Position numbers and translations under genes: made by a program. From Ilex aquifolium (taxonomy: Eukaryota > Streptophyta > Magnoliopsida > Aquifoliales > Aquifoliaceae), in the NCBI GenBank assembly GCA_951799425.1, contig OX637394.1, positions 15,876,001 through 15,940,000 of the forward strand: a stretch of DNA of 64,000 bases, read 5' to 3'. The notes beneath the pieces are model-generated. The model made no database searches and was not told the DNA's origin. It worked only from the letters and a program-made list of their open reading frames with translations. Shown here piece by piece: positions 19,609 through 36,235 of this stretch (the stretch's first letter is position 1; each line of letters begins with the position of its first letter).

Positions 19609-20403
19609 ATGAAGAAGATGGTAGCTGAAATTCTTGCATATGTCGCCCTATGGGCTGTGGTTTCCTCTCTTGCATATGCCTCTGATCCCAGTCCTCTTCA
19701 GGACTTCTGTGTTGCTGTCAATGATTCTAAATCTGCTGGTACATGATGTTCCTCTCCATTTCAAAGCTGGGTAGAAATATTTGTATCAATCTAAATTTCC
19801 TTTTTATCATCTGCTAATGCTTGCAAATTTTACTGTTTATGTGCAGTGTTTGTGAATGGGAAATTCTGCCAGGACCCGAAGATGGCCACGGCTAATGATT
19901 TTTTCTTCCCTGGGCTCAACATACCTGGTAACACGTCTAATAAACTCGGGTCCATGGTCACGCCAGTAACAGTTGCTCAAATTGGTGGACTAAACACCCT
20001 TGGCATTTCGATGGCACGCCTTGATTTTGCACCATATGGCCTCAACCCTCCTCATACACACCCCCGTGGTACCGAGATCCTCACTGTCATGGAAGGTGCC
20101 CTCTTTGTGGGATTTGTTACTTCCAATCCTGACAATCGTCTCATAAGCAAGGTCCTATACCAAGGAGATGTGTTTGTGTTCCCTATTGGTCTCATTCACT
20201 TCCAGCTAAATGTTGGAAACACACCTGCAGTGGCTATTGCCGCACTGAGCAGTCAGAATCCAGGAGTAATCACCATTGCAAATGCAGTGTTTGGGTCGAA
20301 GCCACCTATCTCTGTTGATGTTCTAACCAAGGCCTTCCAGGTTGACAAAAATGTTGTTAACTATCTTGAAGCTCAGTTCTGGACTGATAACAAAGGCCAC
20401 TAA
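19609..20403 (+). CDS. Germin-like protein GLP2 (join 19609..19738, 19847..20403)
   Basis: Two exons with a 108-bp GT-AG intron give 228 residues. The signal peptide is residues 1-24 ([15 protein letters not shown] at its start). Cys34 and Cys51 are kept, box 1 is [10 protein letters not shown] with His113, His115 and Glu120, and box 2 provides His161. It differs from GLP1 and GLP3 by about a dozen substitutions (for example PGNTSN, SMVTPV, GLNPP) and by a seven-residue extension ending WTDNKGH, caused by four extra bases before the usual stop. It is probably a secreted manganese-binding cupin of the cell wall. The GLP4 protein is nearly identical. Confidence 0.93.
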
Positions 20404-21122: not shown

Positions 21123-21214
21123 TTTTTCAACTTACTTTGTCTCTCTTCATAATCCCCTATGTTTTCCAACTCTGTCATATTCGGCTACGATTTGGTTCCA
21201 TGTCAATTTACAAC

Positions 21215-22035
21215 TGATAAGGGTGGAATTCTGGGCATGGGACGCCATGACATCGGAGCCCAATATACCTTGAGAACCCATAAGGTGGGCTTATTAGCCC
21301 AAAGGAAGTGCCTCCAATTAGCCCACGATAAAGGGCAGGAAGGGCCCTAAGATCAAGCCCAACAGCTACGGAAGATCAGCAGCCCAGGCCCGGCCCAATC
21401 CAGTAGCAGCCAAAGGACAATCTGGGAACAAGAAATCACCCCCTTGTCCTGGAAAGGGTCCCGACGCGCCACGTGTCCAAGGGACAAGGGGACCATCTCT
21501 GAAACCTAAGACAATTACGCTTCCCCGGAGATAGAAGGAGGTGATTCGTAACGATCCAGAGATCGTGGGCACAGGGGCGCCGGCTAGTGCAAGCTTTTGC
21601 AGGACAAGGACTGGAGGTCCCCACAAGGTCTGGAAAAAGGCAGGAGGAGCTGCCGGGAACCCTAGGATGAATGACCCGTATAATAGAACAGTGCTATGTA
21701 GCTGGGAGGGATCGGAGAAAAACTTCCTCTGAGGATCACCGCCTTCACCTCCCCCATTGTCTTGTCTATTCCTAGATATTCAGGAAGATAAGGCATATAC
21801 ATTTGTAAAGGTCTAGGGTCTGTAACCGACTGATACTCACCTGAAATCAATACACGACCTCAAAGAGCAAGAGACTCAATTGTAGTGGACGTAGCCTTAG
21901 TCCATCGACTAAGGTGAACCACCTATATCCTGTGTCCTTTACCCTAGATAAATCAACTTCTCACTCTAACAAACCTATTAAAACTCATTAGCGTCCCATC
22001 GATTGGGCTTGGGCTGTATTTTCCGAGGACCATCA
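21215..22035 (+). repeat. Left LTR of the Tat element
   Basis: 821 bp, TGATAAGGGTGG to GAGGACCATCA. Paired with 35415-36235. Confidence 0.92.
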
Positions 22036-22749
22036 GTTGGCGCCGTCTGTGGGAACGATTTTCATCGATTTTCTTTGAAATCTGAATTTGATGGTCTCAA
22101 TTAGGAACATGAGTAGATCTCACGCCAATCCCCAAGTTCACCAAAACCTGCCAGAGAACTATCCAGTCCCGGAGGTGGACGCCGAGGGTCACCCCCAGCG
22201 GTGAACCTCCGGTAACCTAACGAACTAGAAGCCTACCATCGAACCACGATGCAACTGATAAAGCATAACCAGGAGCTGATAGAGTGGATACAGACACATC
22301 AGCTCCCCTGGTGCCCACCGGCGCGTCAGGAACCTCCTTCACCCCCAGTAGAACATGATGCCCCTCCTCAAGAGTACCGAGCTCCACCTAATGGATCACG
22401 GAGCTTCATGAGCACAGCCATTCTGGGGAAAATCATCGGAGGAGGCACCAGGATGAACATGACGAGGACGAGGCCCACAGTCGGGCTAGGGCCGCTTACC
22501 GAGAAGACATACCACATCCCCTGTCGGATGCCATGGATCACCTATTGGAGCAAAGCTTCGCGAGCTCCAACATGAGTTGGGTAACATGAAAGAAGTGGTT
22601 AAAGGGAAAACCCCCGACACCATGGACGCTCTAGTCCAGCAAACCGAGTCGCCATTCACTCCGGAAGTCCTACATTTTCCTCTCCCCTAGAAATTCCGGA
22701 TGTCGTCGATAGAGGCTTTCGACGAAACCAAGGACCCGGTTGACCACTT

Positions 22750-23650
22750 GAACTCTTATAAGAATTAGATGGAACTCCAAGGATACCCAGATCCAATTTG
22801 CTGTCGGGCTTTAGCCATCACCCTCAAAGGATCGGCAATAGCCTGGTTCAACAGGCTACAACCAGCATCGATTTCCTCCTTCAGAGAATTATCCATACAG
22901 TTCGTATCACATTTCATCGGAGCAAGGACGTATAGGAAACCGTCCTACCATCTTCTAAGCGTTAAGCAGGGACCCAATGAGTCCCTCCGAGGCTATATAC
23001 AGCGCTTCAACCAGGAATGTCTGAAGGTGGAGAGTGTGGACAACAAGTTCGCACTGACCACTTTCATGTCTGGGCTGGGAGTACAGTCCAAGGACCTCTT
23101 CTTCTCGATAGCAAAAAACCCTCAAGCCACCATGGCCGAGGTGTTGGAAAAAGCCGAAAATACATCGACGGTGAAGAAGCCCTCCGCCTTAAAGGGGGCG
23201 CAACCCTGACGGAAGGGGAAAAGAAAAAGAGGGACCGCAGTCCCAGGAAGGAGAGGAAACATGAGCGGTCCCCAAGGAGAAATCGCTCACCAAGGAGACG
23301 AAGAGAGCCTTCTCCGAAAAGGAGAGGCAATGTCCGAGATCGCCTCGGACCCCCACCACAGGAGCTACAGCCCCGATATGCCTCGGTAAGGCTCCCGCCC
23401 TTGGTTGTCTCTATCACAGAAGTCCTGCATGAGGTTCAGAACGAGAGATTCGTTCGATGGCCACCGTGGATGAAATTCGACCCTAGGAAAAGGGATCCCA
23501 TGAAGTACTCTGAATACCACAAAGACACCGGCCATGAGACAAACGACTGTATTCAGCTAAAAAATGAGATAGAGTATTTGATCCAAAGAGGCCACCTACG
23601 ACAGTATGTGGCTGCAGAAGGAGGAGAACAGCATAACCAGAGGCGATGAG
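22750..23650 (+). other. Tat element: gag region
   Basis: Translation shows a retrotransposon gag capsid domain (AIAWFNRLQP, SIQFVSHFIGAR, YIQRFNQECLKV). It is followed by a strongly basic arginine/serine/proline stretch of nucleocapsid character and a final segment with YHKDTGHETNDC, a zinc-knuckle-like motif typical of Tat gags. Position and order fit. Treated as a fossil part. Confidence 0.75.
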
Positions 23651-23739
23651 ACCGAGCTGTGCCTCAGCCCCCACAACAACACCAGCAAGCTATAGGCAAG
23701 ATCAGAGTCATCTCGGGAGGATTTTCTGGAGGGGGTGAA

Positions 23740-24450
23740 TCCAGCTCAGCACGGAGGGCATATGCCAAGAAGGCCCGGTCAGAAGATTTCCTCGAAGTCC
23801 AGGCCATCCGGAAGTCACCCCGCCGAGAAGTGGAGATCACTTTTTTCTGATGCAGATCTCGAGGAGTGCCAGCATCCGCATGACGACCCTCTGGTCATAA
23901 AGGCGATTATCGGCAACAAAACCATACATCGGGTGCTGGTCGACAATGGGAGCTCAACAGACATCATTTTTTTGTCGGCATTTAACCAGCTCGGAATAGA
24001 GAGATCGAGGCTTAAGCCCGTGAAGACACATCTCTTGGGATTCTCGGGTGAGAGAGTCTTGCCGGTTGGCTCTATCCCTCTGGTTCTGACCATTGGGGAC
24101 CAACCCTGCCAAGTTACGACCACCGCCCGCTTCCTGGTGGTGGACGCCCCTTCTGCCTACAACGTCCTGTTGGGAAGGCCATCCCTCAATTCCATTAAGG
24201 CAATACCCTCGGCGTACCATTTGGTGATGAAGTTCCCCACCGAGAATAGGGTCGGTACGGTCAGGGGAAACCAACACCTCGCCAGGGAATGCTACGTGGC
24301 ATCAATGCGACAGAAGGAGGTGAAATCAGTCCAGCTAGAGGACTTAGACATGAGAGATGAAATGAAAACCCGGCCTACCCCTACAGAGCAGCTGGAGCCC
24401 GTGCAGTTGGACGAGGACCCAGAGCACGTAGTCTTTGTGGGCTCCATGCT
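23740..24450 (+). other. Tat element: aspartic protease region
   Basis: Shows VLVDNGSSTDIIF, the DxGSS active-site variant common in Tat proteases, followed by ARFLVVDAPSAYNVLLGRP, the conserved second half of the fold. Confidence 0.75.
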
Positions 24451-24579
24451 GCTCCCGCTCATTAAGAAGAAGCTCATTTTTTTCTGAAGGAAAATGTCAA
24501 TACTTTTGCTTGGAAGCAAAAAGATATGGAAGTGATAGATCCCGCGGTGATCGTGCACCGGTTTAGCGTGGATTCGAAC

Positions 24580-25860
24580 TACAAGCCTGTAAGACAGAAA
24601 ATGAGAAGCTTCGCGCCAGACAGGCAGAAAGCTATAAATGAGGAGGTGGCTAAGTTATTGCGAGCCAAAGCCATCCAGGAGGTCGATTACCTGACCTAGT
24701 TAGCGAATGTTGTTCTCGTGAAGAAGGTAAATGACAAATGGCGACTCTGCATCGACTTCACCGACCTTAACCGAGCGTGCTCCAAGGACAGTTTCCCGTT
24801 ACCTCGGATCGACCTAATCGTCGACGCCACAGCCGGTCATGAGCTCCGCAGCTTCATGGACGCCTTTTCCGGATATAACCAGATCAAAATGGATCCGAAC
24901 GACCAGGAGAAAACCTCGTTCGTCACAGAACAAAGAATCTTCTGCTATTAGGTGATGCCGTTCGGATTAAAAAATGACGGGGCCACCTACCAGAGGCTGG
25001 TTAACAGAATATTCCACGACAAGCTCGGCTCGACTATGGAAGTATATATAGACGACATGTTCGTGAAATCGCTAAAAGCGGAGTCCCACATTCAACATCT
25101 CGGGGAGTCGTTCGAAATTATGCGGAAGTACCGGATGAAGCTAAACCCGGCAAAATGTGCCTTTGGGGTATCAGCAGGAAAATTCCTAGGATTCATAGTT
25201 AATAGTAGAGGCATCGAGGCAAACCCGGAGAAGGTGAAGGTAGTCCTCGAAATGAAGCCCCCGACCAACACCCGAGAAATACAACGCCTCACCGAAAGAA
25301 TAGCGGCACTCAACCGATTTGTTTTGCGCTCCAGTGACAAGTGCCAGTCATTCTTCAAGGTCCTAAAGGTAGCTTTCCAGTGGAACGAAAGATGCGAAAA
25401 AGCTTTCCAGGCCCTTAAAACCTATTTAGCATCTCCACCCGTGTTGGTAAGCCCTCAGGAAGGAGAGGTCCTGACCCTTTACCTGGTTGTATCGGACTTC
25501 TCAATTAGTGCCGCCCTTGTGAAGGATAGGGAAAAAGTCCAACAACCAATCTACTTCTGCAGCAAAGACCTCCAAGGAGCCGAAGAGAGGTACCCAAAGA
25601 TGGAGAAGCTGGTGCTGGCCCTCTTAGTGGCAGCTCGGAGGCTGAGGCCCTACTTTCAAGCACACACCATCGAAATTTCAACTGACCAACCAATGAGACA
25701 GGTCCTGCATAAGCCGGAGGCATCCGGAAGACTAGTAAAATGGGCGATGGAGCTTAGCGAGTTCGACATCAAGTTCAAACCTAGGACCGCTATCAAGGGA
25801 CAAGTCTTGGCAGACTTCTTGGCCGAGTTCACCCCTCTATCCGAAGAGGGCACAGAAGAT
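24580..25860 (+). other. Tat element: reverse transcriptase and RNase H region
   Basis: Reverse transcriptase motifs include RLCIDFTDLNRAC, SGYNQI, a MPFGLKN box and the catalytic YIDDM. These are followed by the connection region and a gypsy RNase H (SKDLQGAEERYPKMEKL, then ISTDQPMR). Confidence 0.85.
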
Positions 25861-25889
25861 TAGGACAGTACCCCCAACATTCCGACCTG

Positions 25890-26320
25890 GAAACTATAAG
25901 TGGATGGGGCTTCGAACGCCCAGGGATGCGGGGCCGGACTTGTCCTGACGTCGCAAAAAGGGTATGACCTGGAGTATGCCCTGAGATTTAACTTCCAGAC
26001 ATCCAATAACGAGGCAGAGTACGAGGCCTTGATAGCGGGTTTAAGCCTAGCCTTGTCCATGGATGCGCAACGAATCGTGATCCATAGCGACTCGCAGTTG
26101 GTAGTGAGGCAAGTTGAAGAGGAATACACCGCTAGGGACGAAAAGATGGCACTCTATGTAATGAAAGTACGAAGCTTATTGGGAAAATTCGTATTGACTA
26201 AGCTGGTTCAAGTTCCCCGAGAAGCCAATGCTAGGGCTGACGCCCTGGCCAGGCTCGCTACCATCTCCTCCGACCACGACTTGTTGGGACAGGCACCAGT
26301 CGAAGTCCTCGTAGAGCCCA
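25890..26320 (+). other. Tat element: second, archaeal-type RNase H
   Basis: VDGASNAQGCGAGLVL, NNEAEYEALIAGL, IHSDSQLVV and ANARADALARLA are the four catalytic motifs of the extra RNase H found in Tat gypsy elements. It lies between the gypsy RNase H and the integrase, as expected for that lineage. Confidence 0.85.
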
Positions 26321-26549
26321 GCATAATCCTCGATGAGGAACAAGCCGACAGAGACCAAGTCGTGCCAGTCGAAGAGGGCACTTCGTGGATGGACCCCATT
26401 GTATCCTTCCTACAAGACGGGGTACTGCCAAACGACCCGAATGACGCATCCAAGCTAAGAGCCAGAGCGGCAAGATTTACACTAATCCAAGGTAACCTTT
26501 ACAAAAGAGGTTTTTTTTTTTCCATTAATGAAATGTGTGTCTGGAACGG

Positions 26550-27620
26550 AAGCAGATTATATTCTAAAAGAAATCCACGAAGGCATGTGCGACAACCACA
26601 TTGGTGCGAAAACCTTGGCAAGCAAGGCATTATGACAAGAATACTTCTGGCCAACCATGTCCAAAGATGCCAAAGAAATAGTGAAAAGGTGCCAAGCCTG
26701 CCAGATCCACGGGAACCTGCCCCACTACCCGCCCGAGCTACTCACCCCCGTGGTCAGCCCTTGGGCATTTCAACAATGGGGCTTGGATATCTTGGGGCCC
26801 CTACCAGTTGGGGTCGAACAGTGTAAGTTCGTCGTGGTCGCGGTGGATTACTTCACCAAGTGGGCTGAAGCCGAGCCTCTAGCTAAAATCACAGCGCAGA
26901 AAGTCAAGAACTTTGGCTGAAAGTCTATAATCTGTCGTTTCGGCGTCCCCAGGGCATTGGTTTCTGATAATGGGAAACAGTTCGATAATCCGATGTTCAC
27001 GAGTTTTTGCGACGAGCTAGAAATCAAAAATTACTTCTCAGCACCTACTCACCCGCAGTCTAATGGACATGCTGAGGTAACCATCAGAATCATCAAGCTG
27101 GCGCATATGACTAGGTTGGAGGCGTCTAAATCTCAATGGGTGGACCACCTCCCAGCAGTACTATGGGTGTACCGAACAACTACTCAAACCGCAAATGGTG
27201 AGACCCCGTTCAGCCTAGCATATAGAACAGAGGTCATGGCCCCCGTTGAGGTGGGTGTTTCCTCCGCAAGAGCTGAACTTTTTGATCCAATACAGAACGA
27301 AAGGTCCCTGCTGAAAAACCTCGATCTCCTGGACGAGAAGAGAGATGAGGAACTGCAACGAATCTTCTCCTACCAAAGGAGCACGGCAAGGTACTACAAT
27401 AAGCGGGTGAGAAGAAGGGGTTTCAAACCAGGCGATCTAGTGCTGAAAAAGCTACTCCCAGCCAGTAAGGATCCAGCCCATGGCAAGTTGGGGCCTAATT
27501 GGGAGGGACCATACGTTGTAAAAAGGATTGTCCGGCCTGGCAACTACGAGTTGCAAACAGAGGAAGGAAGAGGCCTACAACACTCATGGAACGCAAACCA
27601 CCTGAAACGCTACTGCCAGT
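26550..27620 (+). other. Tat element: integrase region
   Basis: A zinc-binding CQACQ follows the expected upstream histidines. The core domain shows DILGPLP, VVAVDYFTKWAEAEPL, VSDNGKQFDN and PQSNGHAE, and a GPYVVKRI-type C-terminal domain closes it. Confidence 0.85.
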
Positions 27621-27738
27621 AGAACCTCCCGAAAATCGTTGTACTTAGAGGAAGAAGAGAATTATTGTAAAAAATCCATGTTTTGTCAATGAAAGTTCCG
27701 AAAGCTTGCACTAAACAATACCTGTGAAAACCCCAGAC

Positions 27739-28110
27739 AGAAGCAACACGGCTTTTCAGCCTAAGAGCTCGTAACCTGGGAAGCGATAAGGTTTTTCAGC
27801 CTAAGAGCTCGTAAGCTCAAGAGCTTGTAAGCTCGGAAGCGACAAGGCTTTTCAGCCTAAGAGCTCATAAGCTCAAGAGCTCGTAAGCTCGAAAGTGACA
27901 AGGCTTTTCAGCCTAAGAGCTCGTAAGCTCGGAAGCAACAAGGTTTTTCAGTCTTAGAGCTCGTAAGCTCGGAAGCAACAGGGCTTTTTAGCCTAAAAGC
28001 TCACAAGCTCGGAAGCAACAAGGCTTTTCAGCCTAAGTGTTTAAGAGCCCATAAGTTGTCTAACTTTGCAGCTCAGAAACCATAAGGCTCTTCAGCCCGA
28101 AAAGGCATCC
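27739..28110 (+). repeat. Tandem repeat after the Tat integrase
   Basis: About seven imperfect units of 40-55 bp containing TTTTCAGCCTAAGAGCTCG and TAAGCTCGGAAGCAACAAGG. It separates the sense gag-pol half from the antisense half of the element. The repeated AGCTC words form many small palindromes. Confidence 0.8.
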
Positions 28111-28229
28111 CAGCGCGAAGGACAATAATATTCTCAATACACTGTCCAACAGAAAGTCCACATTTCAAGAAGCGGATATGTCAGTAGGGACCAAGAAGTT
28201 TCAAGGATTACAAGCAAAATGAAAAACGC

Positions 28230-29500
28230 CCTAGCTCCCCCCGGCGGGACCTTTCAACTTCAAATTCCCCTTCTCCAACTCAGCATTGACAGCTCTGAGG
28301 CGAAAATTCTCCTCTCTCAGTGCGTCCCTCTCAGCCTCGACTTCAACAAGCCACCTCATAAGGATCTCCACCACAGCATCATGAGAAGGCAGCAGCTGGG
28401 ATTCTGAGCTGCTCCTTGACCTCTTTCTGCTAGAAAGGGCCTCATCAGGCTCGGAGCAAGTAATGGTTTCATCAGACTCGGAAGATGAAGTGTCAGTCTC
28501 GTGGAAGGAGGAAGGCGCAAATATAATCCAACTCGAACTACCCCCTATATTAAATCGACCAAGATTCTGAGGGGTGACGAGGTCGAAAAAGCGGATCGGC
28601 GCGGCCTGCTCCACAAGACTGATCTACAACTCCTCGTTTAGAGTGAGGCTAGGGCGACCTGTTGCACAAACAAAGTCAACACAACATTTGCCAAAAAAAA
28701 GGGAGGGGGGGGAACGGTTCAATGGAAACCAGGAAGATTTTCATGTACATGCCTCGGTCACGAAAACTCCTCCAAGTGCGGGGAACCCGAACGCGATAAT
28801 TTTTTCTCATTGTGGACTCCTATGAGTCCCAAGAGACGAAGAAGAAACGCTGAGTCCACCCTTCGGGGGAACTAGGGAGACCCGAGATCAGGAGAGGGTA
28901 ACGGAACGGTCTCCAAGTGAAAGTACTAAAAATGGGAGGGTAGTCAAACGAAAGCTCGAAGAAGTAAAGGAATTGCCCAACGGTAGGGAAGTCGTCAAAA
29001 CCTTGAAGGCACCAAAAAATGAAGAAACTCACCAAGGTAGCCCAACCCTGAGGGGAAAGGCGAGAAGGGCACAACTCATAGTAAGAAAGAACCCAGGCAA
29101 AGTCTTGATGGATGGGGAAGCGAAGACCCATTTCGAATGAGCCTTCAAAAAATGGGACTTCCCGATGGGAAGAAAGACTGCAGGGCTCATCCAGGGTTGG
29201 GGCCCTGACCATAAGGTCCTCAAGGAAGTCATATTGCCTCCCTATTCCCCCCACGTCAGCGGCAGTAAGCAGAGAAGGGAGTAAGAACATGGAGTACCAA
29301 GAACCATCCAGGGCCTCCCGAGCCCGCTGTTTAAAAAGGGGAGAGGAAGAAGAAGCCATGAACTTACAAGGATGGAAGAAGGAATAAGAACAAGGTGCAA
29401 AGAAACTACCGAGAGCAAGCAACAAGAGGGTCTACGAAGGACAACGAGAATGGAAGGAGTTCTAAACACTGGGAAATAAATAGCATGCAGCAATGACGGG
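28230..29500 (-). other. Tat element: antisense module A
   Basis: Minus-strand coding DNA inside the retroelement. The N-terminal part resembles the plant gypsy-type transposon domain PF04195 (GLRFPIHQDF, CPSRLSPQGWATLV, then PEGWTQRFFFV). The second part begins IRFFDLVTPQNLGRF, continues as a serine-rich stretch with a basic RKRSRS signal, and ends in a coiled coil (EAERDALREENFRLRAVNAELE). The function of such antisense ORFs in Tat elements is unknown. A weak TATA-like word lies near 29473-29482. Treated as a fossil part. Confidence 0.6.
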
Positions 29501-29609
29501 CGACTGTTGGTTTTCTGCAATCATGACAACATTAATAATAACGACGCAAGGTAGGTGGAGGTTCACTGAAGTGAACAGCCGCTTGGTTCACTTTACAAGA
29601 AGTGAACAG

Positions 29610-32000
29610 TCGCACAGATTAATGGCTAAGGGAGCTTAACCCAAGCAAAAGATGCTCGAACCATAGAGCACAGATCGGGGGAATAGGCAGCACAAATAAT
29701 ACCCTTACTCCAAACAGACCAAGGCCTCTTTGAAGTAGGGGGCAAGAGAGAATATAGCACCAACAACCAACAACCACACCACTGCAGAAAGAAATAAAAA
29801 GTTCCATTACAAAATGAAAGTGTTTACAGGTATTGGTATTGCAAAAAAAAAACAACAAAACAACAAAAGAGTTCTGGTCTTCAAGATTGATCAGAAGGGG
29901 GAGTGGGAGGAGCAGCGTCAGGAGCACCGCCACCGGAGGGACATCAAACCGCTGCTGAAACTGCTCGAGATCCAAGCCAGGGAACCTCTCTATTGCTTGG
30001 TCAGCAAAATTGAAGAACCCGTCCACAAAAGCCTTAGTTGCCTCCAACCTAGCCTTCTCAATCTCTGTTCGCTGGTCTTCTACCAGCTGGCGCTCAGCAG
30101 CCAAGGATTTATTCAGTTCAGCAATAACAACCCGGGATTCTTTCAGCTGGTTCGCCAGCAAATAGCGGGTGACGACAGAACTCAACAGGTCCTCCATCTG
30201 GGCATCATGATCCTCTCTCGAGCGAGTCAGTTCTTCCCTAAGGGAAACCTCGGCTGAGATACTGGCAATCAACTGCTTAAAGGTCTGAGCCCGCTGCTCG
30301 AGGACCTGCTCCAATTCCTTCTCAGTGGTCAGACCCTAGCTCAAGAACTCGGAACTCCGCTGGTGAGCCTCAAGGACCTCAGCAGCCCTCCTTTGGACAT
30401 CATTCCTCAACATGTAAATCTCCCTCCCGAGTGCGCAGACATGTGTCGCCGACTAAAAACAAAGGGACGTTATAGGATGCTGAGAAGGTTGGAGCAAAGA
30501 GAAAAGCAGGACATACCTCAAGGAGGGCATGAAGCGCGTCGCGGCTTCGAACTTGGAAATGAAGGTCAACAGAACGCCGCAGGTCAGCTCGGGGGATCAA
30601 TTCCATCAGCGCACGGCTGCTCAAGCTCACATCCCTGAGCAGGCTCACCTCGAGATCAACGGCGGAAGCCGGGGGGGCACGAGTCGAGCTGGGACCAGCC
30701 GCACTGACCAATGAAGGGCCTCGCCGAACTGGCACTCCCACAAGGTCGACCACAACTGTACCCACAGTGGCTTCCCCAACATCAGGTCCTGATCGAGACA
30801 CCGAGACCTCGGCAATAGAGACAGGAACCTCGCCAACAGAAGCAATCTCACCAACAGAGGCAGAAGTCTCGGACTCTGCGACTACACCCAAGACCTGTTC
30901 AGAAACCGTTCTCCCCCAATCTGGCCCTCTTCGCCGGAGGCTCTGAGCTCCTAGTCCGCCTCCTCTCGTCCACGCGCTCCACGATCATGTGGCGTTGGGT
31001 AACCAGGTACAAAGGGACTGCACAAATAAAGCTGAAAACGGAGTAAGATTTCGAACGAGGAAACAGGGACAAGGTGTCAGATACTCACGGCCGCCTGGTG
31101 GCGAAATCAGCTCGGGATGCATCAACTCGAGATAAGAAAAAGGAAGGCGGGCCCGGGCTTGGTCGACCCGAGCCTACTCCCCGACAGTTAAAGGTGGGAG
31201 CTCGCCTACAACAAAGACAAATAATGCCGTTATTAGAAGCAAAGGAAAAAGGGGCAAAAACAAGCATCAACAAGCCGAGAAGTAAGGACTCACCTAAATT
31301 CCTGCGCTGTCCCCAAGCCGTGGGGACCCTAATCGATGCCGAAAATTGGGAACCAAACTCCCAGCCATCTTTAGAAACGAAGAAATATCTTCTCCTCCAT
31401 CCTTCAGGGCACGTCGGGAGGTCCCGAATAGGAATTTCACCCCCTCGCCTAGCGACGAAGTAATAGAATTCAGACACTTCCTTCGGGTGAAAAAAATGGA
31501 GGAATTCTGTCACGCTAGCCCCTAGATTGGGGGAATAACCTCCCCCACGCTACAGTGAAGGCCAACAACACCGCCCAACCTGACAGAAGAAGTATGACAG
31601 GACAGAGACTAAAGAAGTGCAGAACCTCTCGAATGAAAGAAGGGAGTGGGAACCGGAGCCCTAACAGGAAGGGGCCTCAAAGAAACAAGCCTCATCCCTG
31701 ACCAGGCAATGAAACCTACGCGAAGCGGCATGGCACACAACCACTCCTAGGGGAAACTCAAAGCGCCTAGCGATGGACTGAGCCTCTTCCTCATCAATTT
31801 CGCTGACTTCTATGTCGGGGAAGAGTCGTTCCATAACGTAGCGTGGAGAAGATGGGGTTCTAGCCATCAACGCAGAAATCAAATGGAGTTTCCTAAAAAT
31901 ACCAGGGAAAATGGAGCGTCACAACAAGAAGGAGAAGTAGAAAACCTGTTTCGTGCCCAGGACGAGGCAATCATTCTCCGAGAATGCCTATTTATAGATG
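29610..32000 (-). other. Tat element: antisense module B
   Basis: A second minus-strand module of the same plan. It includes a PF04195-like end (PEGWRRRYFFVSKDG), a serine/valine-rich middle, a coiled coil (ELNKSLAAERQLVEDQRTEIEK) and a tail KAFVDGFFNFADQAIERFPGLDLEQF. That tail matches the tail of module C. A TATA box reads TATAAATA on the minus strand at 31989-31996, about 107 bp before the first ATG of the module (31882). Confidence 0.6.
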
Positions 32001-32549
32001 CTACAGACAGGCCCCATCACTTTCGCTGGATGCATTTAATACACGTCCCTCGCATTTAAGGAGAGGGACACGTGGCACCACAGGGAGTTACGGGGCATCA
32101 CTTTCGAGGAGCCACTAACCCCACCGGAGGCGCACGTTCTCAAATGGATGAAACTGTCAAGTCTGGAATACGTGGAAAGAACTAAGAAAATACCAAAACG
32201 GCCCCAGGGAACCCAAACGTAGGTACCCGAAGAGGAACAAGATCGGGAAAGTGCCTGATTTGGACCAGCTCGGCTGAATGAAGGGGACAGCCCAAACAAG
32301 CCTCGTTTTCACCCACCACCATTACCTAACGACGACTTAAAAACCGCGAGCTCGGGCCTCAGGGTTAGTAGTAAAACCTACAACGGCATAGTCCGAAAAA
32401 TATACAAGTACATCACCCAAAAGGCACAACCATAGGAAATGAAAGACCAGCAATAGTATTCTCATTACACCTAAGAAACTTCAACGAAGTGTTTTTAGGA
32501 CAAAAGTCATCAGGGATTACAGGGAGAAATGAGAAGAAATAGCCACAGC

Positions 32550-35165
32550 CCGGCCTCAAAGAACAGTTTCAGTGCCACCATCGACTCCCCCTTTGGCAAC
32601 CTCCGCCGGGGCGCTGAGTTCCTCGGGTCCAGCCATCTTAGCCTCTTCAGCTACCACAGTCGCCTTCTTGAACCCGAGAAGAGACACGAAGGGATCCAGG
32701 TCAAGATCAGGATAGGCCTCCTCGAGTTGCTCCTGAAGATTCACAAACCCCTTCACGAAGGCAAAGGCACTCTCTTTCAGAAGCTCCGACACCTAGGCCC
32801 GCAGAGATGACAATTCGGAGTCCTTGGCCACCAAATCGACATCTTTAGCCCTGAGCTCTGAGTCTTTGGCTATCAAGTCGGCCTCTTTGGCTTTGAGCTT
32901 GTCCTCCTTGTCCTTCATTTGTGAATCCTTGAGCTTGACGAAGTCTCGGTGGCGAGCATCCATCTCATCATTAATCCTCTTCAGCTCAGTGGCCTCCACC
33001 GATAGAATCCTCACCTTCTCCTCGGCGGCCTCCTTGCCCACCAACACGGTGTCTAGGGACTCCCTAGCCTTCAAGAGCTCCTGCTCGTGGTGAAAGTCCA
33101 TCATCTTCATACAGGCAAACGACTGAGAAAGAAAGAGGTTAGTCCATACCAGACCCGTGAAAATCTCAGCAAAAAGCAGCACCGGAGAAGGAGAAAAATA
33201 TAGGCAGAAAGTACCTCGGACAGGCCCCAGATAGCGCGGTGGACCTTCCAATCGAAAGGAACCTGCATGGCCACCCTAGGATCTGACGTGGAAATCATCT
33301 CGGATAAAACAGTAATGGCGGCCTCAGGGTCACGAAGGAAGCCACCCCCTTGCGCCTTGGACGAGGAAGGAATGGTTTCCACCTTCCGGCCTTCTTGTGA
33401 GACAGACTGAGGAGGAGCTTCAGACACCCCGGGCTGTCCCCTCGAAGCTCCCTCAGTTGAAGATTTGCTCTCAGGTGTTTCAAGGGGGGACGAGAGGGCA
33501 GCCACACCTCCATGGGAAGAAGGATCCTCTTTCTTCTACCCCGAGGAAACAGGCAGGGGCCCGGATACCGATGCTTCCTTGGATGATGGCGGCAAGCCCT
33601 TCACCAGCTTCCTTTTCTTCCTCGATTTCTCAGTGTCCGAGAACATCGCCATGATTAAATCTTGATTCATGGGCTCAAGCGACAATGCAGTCACTGGAGC
33701 TTGATCAATGGGAGGCCCGAGCTCGTAGTTAGCAAGGTTCTCGTAGGTCACCAGGTCAAAAAATGATCGCAACCCCAAAGCCTCGGCCCTAGCGACTCTA
33801 GCAGCCTCCTCAATGTCAAGATCTGGACAAAAATCTGCAAACCAGAAGCTAAGTAAGACAGTAAGGAGAAAACAACAAAGAATAACATATTGAAGATCCT
33901 TAAGAGTATTCCTTGGAATCCCCCAAAACCTGGGGATGCGGGGAACGTTGCCAGGTTCCCCAAACAGCTCTCATGAGTCGCCTCTAACAAAGAAAAACCT
34001 GGGTTTCCATCCCTTGTTGGAAGAGGGAAGCCCGAAAATTAGGTTCTTCGCCTTAACCCTTTTCGCAAAGTACAAGAAACCCAAGGAGGGAGAAGACTTA
34101 AGTTGGAAAAGAGAGGCGAACTCCCTAATGGTGGGATGAGAGTCGTTCCCATTCATAATCCAATGGACAAGGAACCCGGTCAGAAGGCCCCACTCATTTG
34201 GAGAAAGTCGAGCGGGGTAGACGTTGTAAAAACTGAGAACATTCTGAATAAAGGGATGAACAGGGAACCGCAGACCAGCGCGGAATGCAGACTCATAGAA
34301 ACAGACCAGCCCGGGAATGGAAGAATTACACCTCTCATGATCCTCGAGAGAATATAAGACAACGGAGTCAGGAAAACGATACTCCCGCCTCAGTTAATCT
34401 AAATCCTCGTTCTTAAGGCAACTAGGAGTCGCCTCCGCACAATAGGCCAGGTCGTTTTGGTTATGACGGATTCTTTTCCTAGGAGTCGGGGGAGGAATCG
34501 GTTTGAATTTCCTCTTCCTCAACGGGATAAAAGAGGAAGGAGGTAAGGATGAAAGAGGGCGAGCCTCTACTAAAGGTATTGAAGCAGAAACTCTAGGGGT
34601 AGACTCATAAACTGCCTCACCGGCGGTAAAAGAGCAGTCGCTCGAGGAACCCGAGGTACTCTCCTCGACCTCCTCACCTACCTGGTCCTCAGAATTCGAC
34701 TTAGAAGAGGAAACGACGAACTTCCTTATCAAAGGTTCAGGTTGCAAACCAGAGAGTAAGGAAGGCAAATGTAAAGCGCAATCCGTTAGAAATGGAAGTC
34801 TTAGACACCAACCTCTGAGGAATGATACCCTAAGCAAAGTAGAATGATCCACGAAATACGAAAGGGAGGAAAGGTCGTCGGAATGACTCATAAAGTAGCT
34901 AAATCTCCATATCAAAAAGCGGAACCCAAAGCCCCACCAGGGAGTGTTGAAGGGATCCAGGTCGAGCAAGAAAGAAGAAGGGAAGAGAGACGTACCTAGT
35001 AAAGACGCTAGAGGCAGAAAGGAACCGGAAACGCAGAGACCCTAAAGTCGCCCAAAAGTCTGCAACAAGACGCCTCGGAAGCCGAAGGAAGAGAATGAGA
35101 CGCAAGGAGGAGTTTCGAAAAATGCAAAGTGTACAAGGCGAAGGGATTTCCCCTTTTTATACAAA
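32550..35165 (-). other. Tat element: antisense module C
   Basis: A third minus-strand module. It has PF04195-like sequence ending NKGWKPRFFFVRGDS, then RSFFDLVTYENLANYELG (the counterpart of FFDLVTPQNLGRF in module A), and a basic KSRKKRKLVK signal. A long coiled coil follows, with KDSELRAKDVDLVAKDSEL repeats, and then a tail AFVKGFVNLQEQLEEAYPDLDLDPF. A TATA box (TATAAAAA on the minus strand, 35154-35161) lies about 50 bp before the first ATG (35105). Confidence 0.6.
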
Positions 35166-35414
35166 GTATTTAAAGCCCTGACAGGCAGATGCCAGGACAC
35201 GCCAAAGAAACCGCAGCGTTGGGCTCACCTAATGGTGACACGTGCGCGAGCCGTCCCATCATAACTGGCAAACATCAACTCGGCCCAAATTAGAGCAGAG
35301 TCGACTACCAGACATCTCCGCCACATTAGGAGATAATGAAAAATTTAGAAAAGACATTTCCAAACCCCAGGTCAGAGATGACGTCATCCTCGTGACCAGG
35401 GGCTGGGGGGCAAC

Positions 35415-36235
35415 TGATAAGGGTGAATTCTGGGCATGGGGCGCCATGACATCGGAGCCCAATATACCTTGAGAACCCAGAAGGTGGGCTTATTAGCCCA
35501 AAGGAAGTGCCTCTAATTAGCCCACAATAAAGGGCAGGAAGGGCCCTAAGATCAAGCCCAACGACTACGGAAGACCAGCAGCCCAGGCCCGGCCCAATCC
35601 AGTAGCAGCCAAAGGACAATCTGGGAACAAGAAATCACCCCCTTGTCCTGGAAAGGGTCCCGACGCGCCACGTGTCCAAGGGACAAGGGGAACATCTCTG
35701 AAACCTAAGATAACTACGCCTCCCCGGAGGTAGAAGGAGGTGGTGCGTAACGATCTAGAGATCGTGGGCACAGGGGCGCTGGCTAGTGCAAGCTTTTGCA
35801 GGACAAGGACTGGAGGTCCCCACAAGATCTGGAAAAAGGCAGGAGGAGCCGCCGAGAAACCTAGGACGAATGACCCATAAAAATAGAACAGTGCTATGTA
35901 GCCAGGAGGGATCGGAGAAAAACTTCCTCTGAGGATCACCGTCTTCGCCTCCCCCATTGTCTTGTCTATTCCCAGATATTCAGGAAGATAAAGCATATAC
36001 ATTTGTAAAGGTCCAGGGTCTGTAACCGAATGGTACTCACCTGAAATCAATACACGACCTCAAGGAGCAAGAGACTCCATTGTAGTGGACGTAGCCTTAG
36101 TCTATCGACTAAGGTGAACCACCTATATCCTGTGTCCTTTACGCTAGATAAATAAACTTCTCACTCTAAAAAACCTATTAAAACTCATTAGCATCCCATC
36201 GGTTGGGCTTGGGCTGTATTTTCCGAGGACCATCA
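35415..36235 (+). repeat. Right LTR of the Tat element
   Basis: 821 bp, preceded by a purine tract (CAGGGGCTGGGGGGCAAC) and followed by the ACAAC target duplication. Confidence 0.92.

Follow-up and report, generated by a model that had tools for sequence, protein, structure and literature searches.

An array of three paralogous antisense genes, probably expressed separately, in a Tat/Retand-type retrotransposon of Ilex aquifolium

By the usual view, gag and pol are all that a long terminal repeat (LTR) retrotransposon needs. Why, then, would such an element carry three diverged accessory genes on its opposite strand, with their introns intact? This question is raised by a locus of Ilex aquifolium located in a stretch of 64,000 nucleotides (OX637394.1, positions 15,876,001-15,940,000), hereafter called the window, whose numbering is used for all positions below. 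It holds a single LTR retrotransposon of Tat type (about 21211-36235, 15 kb), whose LTRs are 94.9% identical (BLAST). The region of 7.8 kb between pol and the 3' LTR contains three genes on the minus strand, arranged in the order C, B and A in their own reading direction. The initial annotation of the window reported three similar antisense modules between the integrase and the 3' LTR of one Tat element, and described a small multigene cassette carried backwards. The first claim is confirmed by profile comparisons and by the PF04195 domain, and the second description is apt, as the modules behave as separate genes with promoter-like sites. It is likely that the antisense accessory genes of this Tat/Retand-type element form an array of three paralogues, each expressed separately; concerning the structure of the three-gene array and the selection acting on it, we have very little doubt.

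The first exons of the three genes encode related domains. Comparison of their profiles with hhalign gives probabilities of 99.25% for A and B (28% identity), 99.68% for A and C (37%) and 99.41% for B and C (24%), while four control pairs of unlike exons remain below 0.3%. The modules are thus not the unrelated stretches that the initial annotation had envisaged as the failure of its proposal. These profiles were built from aligned copies after exclusion of the rows with more than two stops or in another frame (7-10 of the 12-13 rows kept per exon), and that of B includes the row of the window, which is garbled between its two frameshifts. The Pfam domain PF04195 (TRP28), whose cut-off is 26.2 bits, is found above this threshold in A (32.3 bits, 1.2e-7) and C (42.3 bits, 9.1e-11). 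Gene B straddles it, since one of five copies from elsewhere reaches 26.9 bits and the four others 17.9-23.3 bits; the two pieces of the frameshifted B of the window give no PF04195 match. The motif GW..R.FFFV occurs, as had been claimed, in all three genes (GWTQRFFFV in A, GWRRRYFFV in B, GWKPRFFFV in C). The FFDLVT..NL motif proposed for A and C was located in both (28590-28561 and 33763-33734); B, which had been left out, has a likely counterpart by eye, FSYLELMHPEL (31140-31108), at the matching place after intron 1. In the same way, the AFV.GF.N tail attributed to B and C was found at 30032 and 32762, the two tails matching with a probability of 94%, and none was seen in A. The probability falls to 59% for the exons of A and C that hold FFDLVT, and to 3% for the middle exons B3 and C2. 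All three genes also include conserved basic motifs, RKKRK, KRARL or SRKR.

Alignment of 13 sites over 28150-35450 (window included, 71-93% identity), picked for length and coverage from 62 matching pieces, reveals a codon-phase pattern that marks separate multi-exon genes; one of these copies, C4b, lacks the end of A and another, C10, most of C exon 1. Gene A comprises exon 1 with the TRP28 domain (28753-29359, with an ATG at 29359 in 12 of 12 copies), a phase 1 intron (28659-28752, acceptor AG in 12/12, donor GT in 8/12 and GC in 4/12), and exon 2 (28231-28658), which includes F(F/S)DL(V/L)T..NL, the SRKR motif and a short coiled-coil-like end. Copy C1b (L045) has a duplicated stretch within this last exon, over window positions 28283-28512. 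Gene B begins with a TRP28 exon (31294-31867, ATG at 31867 in 13/13, frameshifted in the window) followed by intron 1 (31206-31293, phase 1, GT in 13/13, AG in 12/13), exon 2 with FSYLELMHPEL (31089-31205), intron 2 (31018-31088, GT in 12/13, AG in 13/13), exon 3 with a KRARL-like motif (30517-31017), intron 3 (30453-30516, phase 0, GT in 9/12, GC in 3/12, AG in 12/12) and exon 4 (29928-30452, right end approximate), which encodes a coiled-coil-like part and the AFVDGFFN..LDL tail. Gene C has its TRP28 exon at 33904-34729, counted from a conserved start codon present in 11 of 12 copies and missing in that of the window, then intron 1 (33835-33903, phase 1, AG in 13/13, GT in 12/13, the exception being the window copy), exon 2 with FFDLVT..NL and RKKRK (33215-33834), intron 2 (33123-33214, phase 0, GT and AG in 13/13) and exon 3 (32556-33122), which carries a coiled-coil-like part and the AFVKGF.N..LDL tail and ends with a stop triplet in 13/13.

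Donors GT or GC and acceptors AG are therefore found nearly throughout the aligned rows, the exceptions being two single donors (AT and TT) and a single AA acceptor. As read by hand, intron 1 has a common position and phase (phase 1) in the three genes, directly after a VP..W...R motif, and the phase 0 intron that precedes the coiled-coil-like part has the same position in B and C (intron 3 of B, intron 2 of C); B has one extra intron, its intron 2, for which no counterpart was seen in the two other genes. The same order of parts, stated in the initial annotation for the three modules, holds by position, though not by measured homology for the end of A. Since the introns are common to the copies, these were not derived from spliced RNA. 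The presence of three modules on one strand within 7 kb might also reflect a single long gene in antisense, a situation that the initial annotation had opposed to its own proposal, or else transcripts that read through and are spliced over all three. However, the invariant ATGs of A and B and the conserved stop of C indicate no gene spanning the three modules, and the TATA-like sites ahead of B and A lie in spacers where the codon signal is slight; we hold a single long gene, or such read-through, to be very unlikely.

The array is not restricted to the window. The candidates scored in the genome were 150 out of 7157 (B), 150 out of 7002 (A) and 140 out of 7872 (C), so that the following counts are lower bounds. 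Among the 150 B matches listed, 100 have a C match 2-4.5 kb upstream and 92 an A match 1.5-4.5 kb downstream; both neighbours are present, forming C-B-A arrays, for at least 65 of them. Among the matches listed, pairs on opposite strands within 9 kb amount to one per gene pair. By eye, all three matched exons are free of stops in at least eight arrays (e.g., C8:8441165-8446864), and in two further arrays (L054 and L055) exon 1 is open in all three genes. Fifteen C-A pairs have no listed B, but two of them, the window and C18, do hold a frameshifted B, so these pairs are not evidence for a loss of B. The copy of the window is damaged in A, B and C by in-frame stops, frameshifts, an altered splice donor and the missing start of C, as would be expected if nested insertions, an assembly artefact or chance open reading frames (ORFs) in decayed sequence had produced the array. 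The recurrence of the same order and spacing at so many places, together with the collinearity of the 13 copies, has already refuted this explanation, to which we give practically no credence.

Selection on the coding units indicates genes and not debris. Divergence among three subgroups of copies displays a three-base periodicity whose blocks coincide with the exons; it fades in introns and spacers and is weak in parts of C exon 2 and B exon 3. The ratio of nonsynonymous to synonymous substitution rates (dN/dS) in frame ranges from 0.13 to 0.47 (44 or 54 pairs), as against 0.68-1.60 in the wrong frames: 0.13 for A exon 1 and B exon 4, 0.15 for B exon 1, 0.23 for C exon 3, 0.26 for B exon 2, 0.32 for A exon 2, 0.36 for B exon 3 and 0.47 for C exon 2. 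In nine matched pairs, the integrase has a ratio of 0.18, B exon 1 0.16, A exon 1 0.19 and B exon 4 0.21, followed by B exon 2 (0.28), C exon 3 (0.29), the core of C exon 1 (0.31) and A exon 2 (0.35), the spacers being at 0.45-0.79. Each gene is under purifying selection, about as strong in the best exons (0.16-0.21) as in the integrase. As selection keeps all three genes in many copies, they are probably of benefit to the element. It might be the transcription of this strand that matters, and not the proteins, through double-stranded RNA or interference with the gag-pol RNA, a mode of action described for antisense RNAs in certain retrotransposons (PMC7264820; PMC12786077). However, low dN/dS, the codon-phase signal and conserved splice sites indicate that selection acts on the protein, which largely refutes this RNA-based explanation and leaves it highly improbable.

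Promoter-like sites are consistent with separate expression. The initial annotation had proposed TATA boxes before two of the modules, and both exist: gene B is preceded by TATAAATA (31996-31989, minus strand), conserved in 12/13 copies, and gene C by TATAAAAA (35161-35154, minus strand), with TATAAAA in 8/12. The count of two does not stand, as gene A is also preceded by an invariant TATA-like CTATTTATTT (29483-29474, minus strand; TATTTATT in 12/12). The sites of A and B belong to the few conserved 8-mers of their spacers, 11 of 464 for A and 22 of 566 for B, 11 of the latter resting on five rows only. In the array L055, TATA-like sites precede all three genes; in L054, the C site is present and those of B and A are altered. 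The separate promoters suggested by the initial annotation thus appear better supported for B and A than for C. Other motifs rank among the most conserved noncoding sites, namely GAACGTGC (12/13) and GTGGGGTT (13/13) upstream of the TATA box of B (32144-32114, minus strand) and CACGTGTC upstream of that of C (35244-35237, minus strand, 11/12 copies), which we take to be G-box-like.

How did three such genes come to stand side by side? Mean identities are 30% between A and B, 32% between A and C and 29% between B and C. A recent triplication was considered and is ruled out by these values, which imply that the duplications are old, and by the existence of an A-type gene in a second family. Five other elements were sampled in stretches of 8.3-8.5 kb, that of L049 being without pol. 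L049, from another family, combines a C-type gene with one of A type and gave no separate match to B; L051 and L052 have one C-type gene each, and L050 and L053 one distant TRP28 gene each, spread in L053 over two overlapping frames. The single gene of L050 includes a repeated segment in or beside its possible coiled-coil part (L050:3845-4123). The survey of relatives for module number, proposed in the initial annotation, thus gives C-B-A arrays in abundance, but also C with A, or C alone. Within this sample, B is found only in the wider family of the window. The L049 family's A-type gene is itself abundant, 150 of 150 matches listed having 91-100% identity.

In the phylogenetic tree, A, B and C form three clades. 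The A gene of L049 falls within clade A (95.9/97 for the SH-like approximate likelihood ratio test, SH-aLRT, and the bootstrap), so that the origin of A does not postdate the split from L049. The C gene of L049 and the single genes of L051 and L052 join C with modest support (81.9/65), and those of L050 and L053 are unplaced (SH-aLRT 0, bootstrap 47); C looks like the common Retand gene. With this grouping, and with the report that TRP28 has no similarity outside transposable elements (TEs) (PMC11963269), the capture of a host gene followed by duplication, which the initial annotation had offered as a guess, has no support here, with the limit that no dedicated search for host homologues was made and that the 150 listed PF04195 matches were not sorted into host and element genes. 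The same data bear on an origin without any duplication in place: C would be the TRP28 gene native to the element, and the two others would have been imported from different lineages of Retand, through recombination or a switch of template among RNAs packaged together. It would explain why the identities between A, B and C are not above those to the TRP28 of the distant family (28-32%), whose branch is not placed, and why C groups with genes from elements that have just one. However, L049 has its A-type gene beside C in the same order, so any import is older than that split, and a conserved order of the array is equally expected from duplication in place. Both origins fit the present data, and we give import a sizeable chance of being right, though one below even.

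The role of the array of paralogous genes may be considered step by step. Each gene would be transcribed from its own minus-strand promoter and could thus be read independently of gag-pol. Due to their backward orientation, the introns would not be recognised in the sense genomic RNA and would survive reverse transcription; introns and promoters invisible to this RNA are a suggested reason for carrying the genes backwards. The three genes would have arisen by old duplication or by exchange of unspliced sequence. The conserved basic motifs, the coiled-coil-like ends of B and C (by eye), the predicted DNA binding of TRP28 (PMC11963269) and the nuclear protein of gene23 from the maize element Grande (PMC7264820) together make nuclear regulators the most likely function: the proteins would be nuclear, oligomeric and DNA-binding, and could regulate transcription, silencing or targeting of the element, with functions either divided among A, B and C or exerted jointly. 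The chances of such a regulatory nuclear role seem to us slightly under even, and an anti-silencing role in particular is unlikely. With the three proteins, the conserved splice sites, the defined promoter-like sites and an array that may be their target, the role of antisense TRP28 genes becomes directly testable.

This possible target is the palindromic tandem array lying beside pol, between pol and gene A (27738-28040), whose 40/56-bp units are built of 5+4+5-bp inverted repeats. Arrays also lie beside pol elsewhere (L049:8310-8501, L051:5675-6079, L052:2298-2647 and L048:6106-6552). The units differ between families (window, L049, L051/L052) yet share 5-bp arms and a 4-bp spacer. This spacer, selected after viewing the data, is the commonest in six of six arrays (tied with 8 in L049); as these come from three families, they are not six independent cases. 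With the same reservation on the choice of the spacer, shuffling gives P values per unit of 0.0005 for the window, 0.0016 for L049 and 0.049 for L051. The inverted repeats may serve as palindromic sites for binding, or they may form RNA hairpins with a tetraloop. VANDALs are DNA transposons. The three paralogues could conceivably constitute an independent retrotransposon counterpart of their VANC proteins, a multi-protein sequence-specific system that would control or escape silencing through nuclear coiled-coil oligomers bound to the 5+4+5-bp palindromes of their own array, with introns kept by antisense orientation; we consider this elaborate scenario quite unlikely. The likeness to VANC (PMC5735166) is a functional analogy only: in both cases the accessory proteins are encoded by a TE, the targets of VANC are often tandem repeats varying between related TEs, and related families here also have differing arrays.

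Several points weigh against an array of three separately expressed genes for regulatory proteins. Promoters, splicing and translation are all deduced from sequence. Four of 12 copies lack the TATA box of C, which lies outside the 3 conserved 8-mers, among 301, of its stretch. Codon constraint in gene C begins at about 34996, upstream of the first conserved ATG at 34729: the stretch ahead of this codon (34738-34996, minus strand) is constrained in the frame of C without any conserved ATG (dN/dS of 0.30 against 0.64 and 0.82 in the wrong frames, six pairs), and a spliced or non-ATG start is possible. In the matched pairs, C exon 2 (0.44) and B exon 3 (0.49) are on a par with the spacer between B and A read in its best frame (0.45). 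Exon 2 of A has no measurable homology to the coiled-coil exons B4 and C3 (hhalign 0.28% and 0.07%), the coiled coils were assigned by eye, and the basic motifs are short enough for coincidence. AlphaFold gave no confident fold for TRP28 (predicted local distance difference test of 45, from a three-row alignment of the window sequences) and sequence searches of the PDB found no solved relative with E up to 1; DNA binding therefore rests on the published prediction. Finally, the tandem array is no more than a candidate target of the TRP28 proteins. As a separate observation, a stretch comparable to that ahead of the C start precedes, by eye, the C-type gene of L049.

Antisense TRP28 genes as such are known. 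In Retand elements, an antisense TRP28 ORF lies between pol and the 3' LTR; the domain is carried by 57 of 104 antisense ORFs and is present in 61 of 63 clusters (97%) (PMC11963269, Vicient 2025), which suggests about one TRP28 gene per element in that data set. These elements share with that of the window the antisense TRP28, a long region between pol and the 3' LTR, arrays often beside pol, tandem arrays occurring in about half of them, and the presence of further antisense ORFs, some of which are Smc-like in the Retand set. Their pol-3' LTR region spans 2,933-6,556 bp (Table 1 of PMC11963269; 6,566 in its text) as against 7.8 kb here, and the main text of that paper contains no word beginning with "intron"; no description of three paralogues or of common introns was found there. 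The gene23 of Grande is likewise an antisense accessory gene with its own promoter, but it is described as one gene, and the likeness is drawn from this description and not from sequence (PMC7264820). A further analogy, with no homology claimed, is HBZ of human T-cell leukaemia virus type 1 (named in PMC11963269), an antisense retroelement gene for a nuclear regulator; unlike the present array, it is a single viral gene whose antisense promoter lies inside the 3' LTR (PMC7264820). In the titles, abstract openings and text passages covered in the open-access literature (PMC), no account was found of several TRP28 paralogues per element or of introns in them, nor of an intron-bearing array of three paralogues.

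The other parts of the element agree with its classification. The LTRs lie at 21211-22035 and 35411-36235 (plus strand, ends given by the BLAST match between them). On the plus strand, they enclose gag (22769-23206, PF03732, 1.1e-14), part of the reverse transcriptase with its own RNase H (24952-25860, RVT_1, RT_RNaseH_2 and RT_RNaseH), a second RNase H (25900-26520, RVT_3, 7.1e-20) and the C-terminal part of the integrase (26957-27619). This last part, without Pfam match, is identified only by its position and by its similarity to other families (53.6-64.0% identity to the matching frame of four other elements). The order LTRs, gag, reverse transcriptase and integrase is that of Gypsy elements, with this qualification on the integrase, and the Tat clade is marked by an additional RNase H beside the native one (PMC10508981), here RVT_3 next to RT_RNaseH. 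The antisense TRP28 gene between pol and the 3' LTR, the length of this region and the tandem array are all Retand traits, and on these features the element appears to be of Tat/Retand type. Outside it, an adjoining ORF on the plus strand (19846-20403) resembles by eye what we presume to be a germin-like protein gene.

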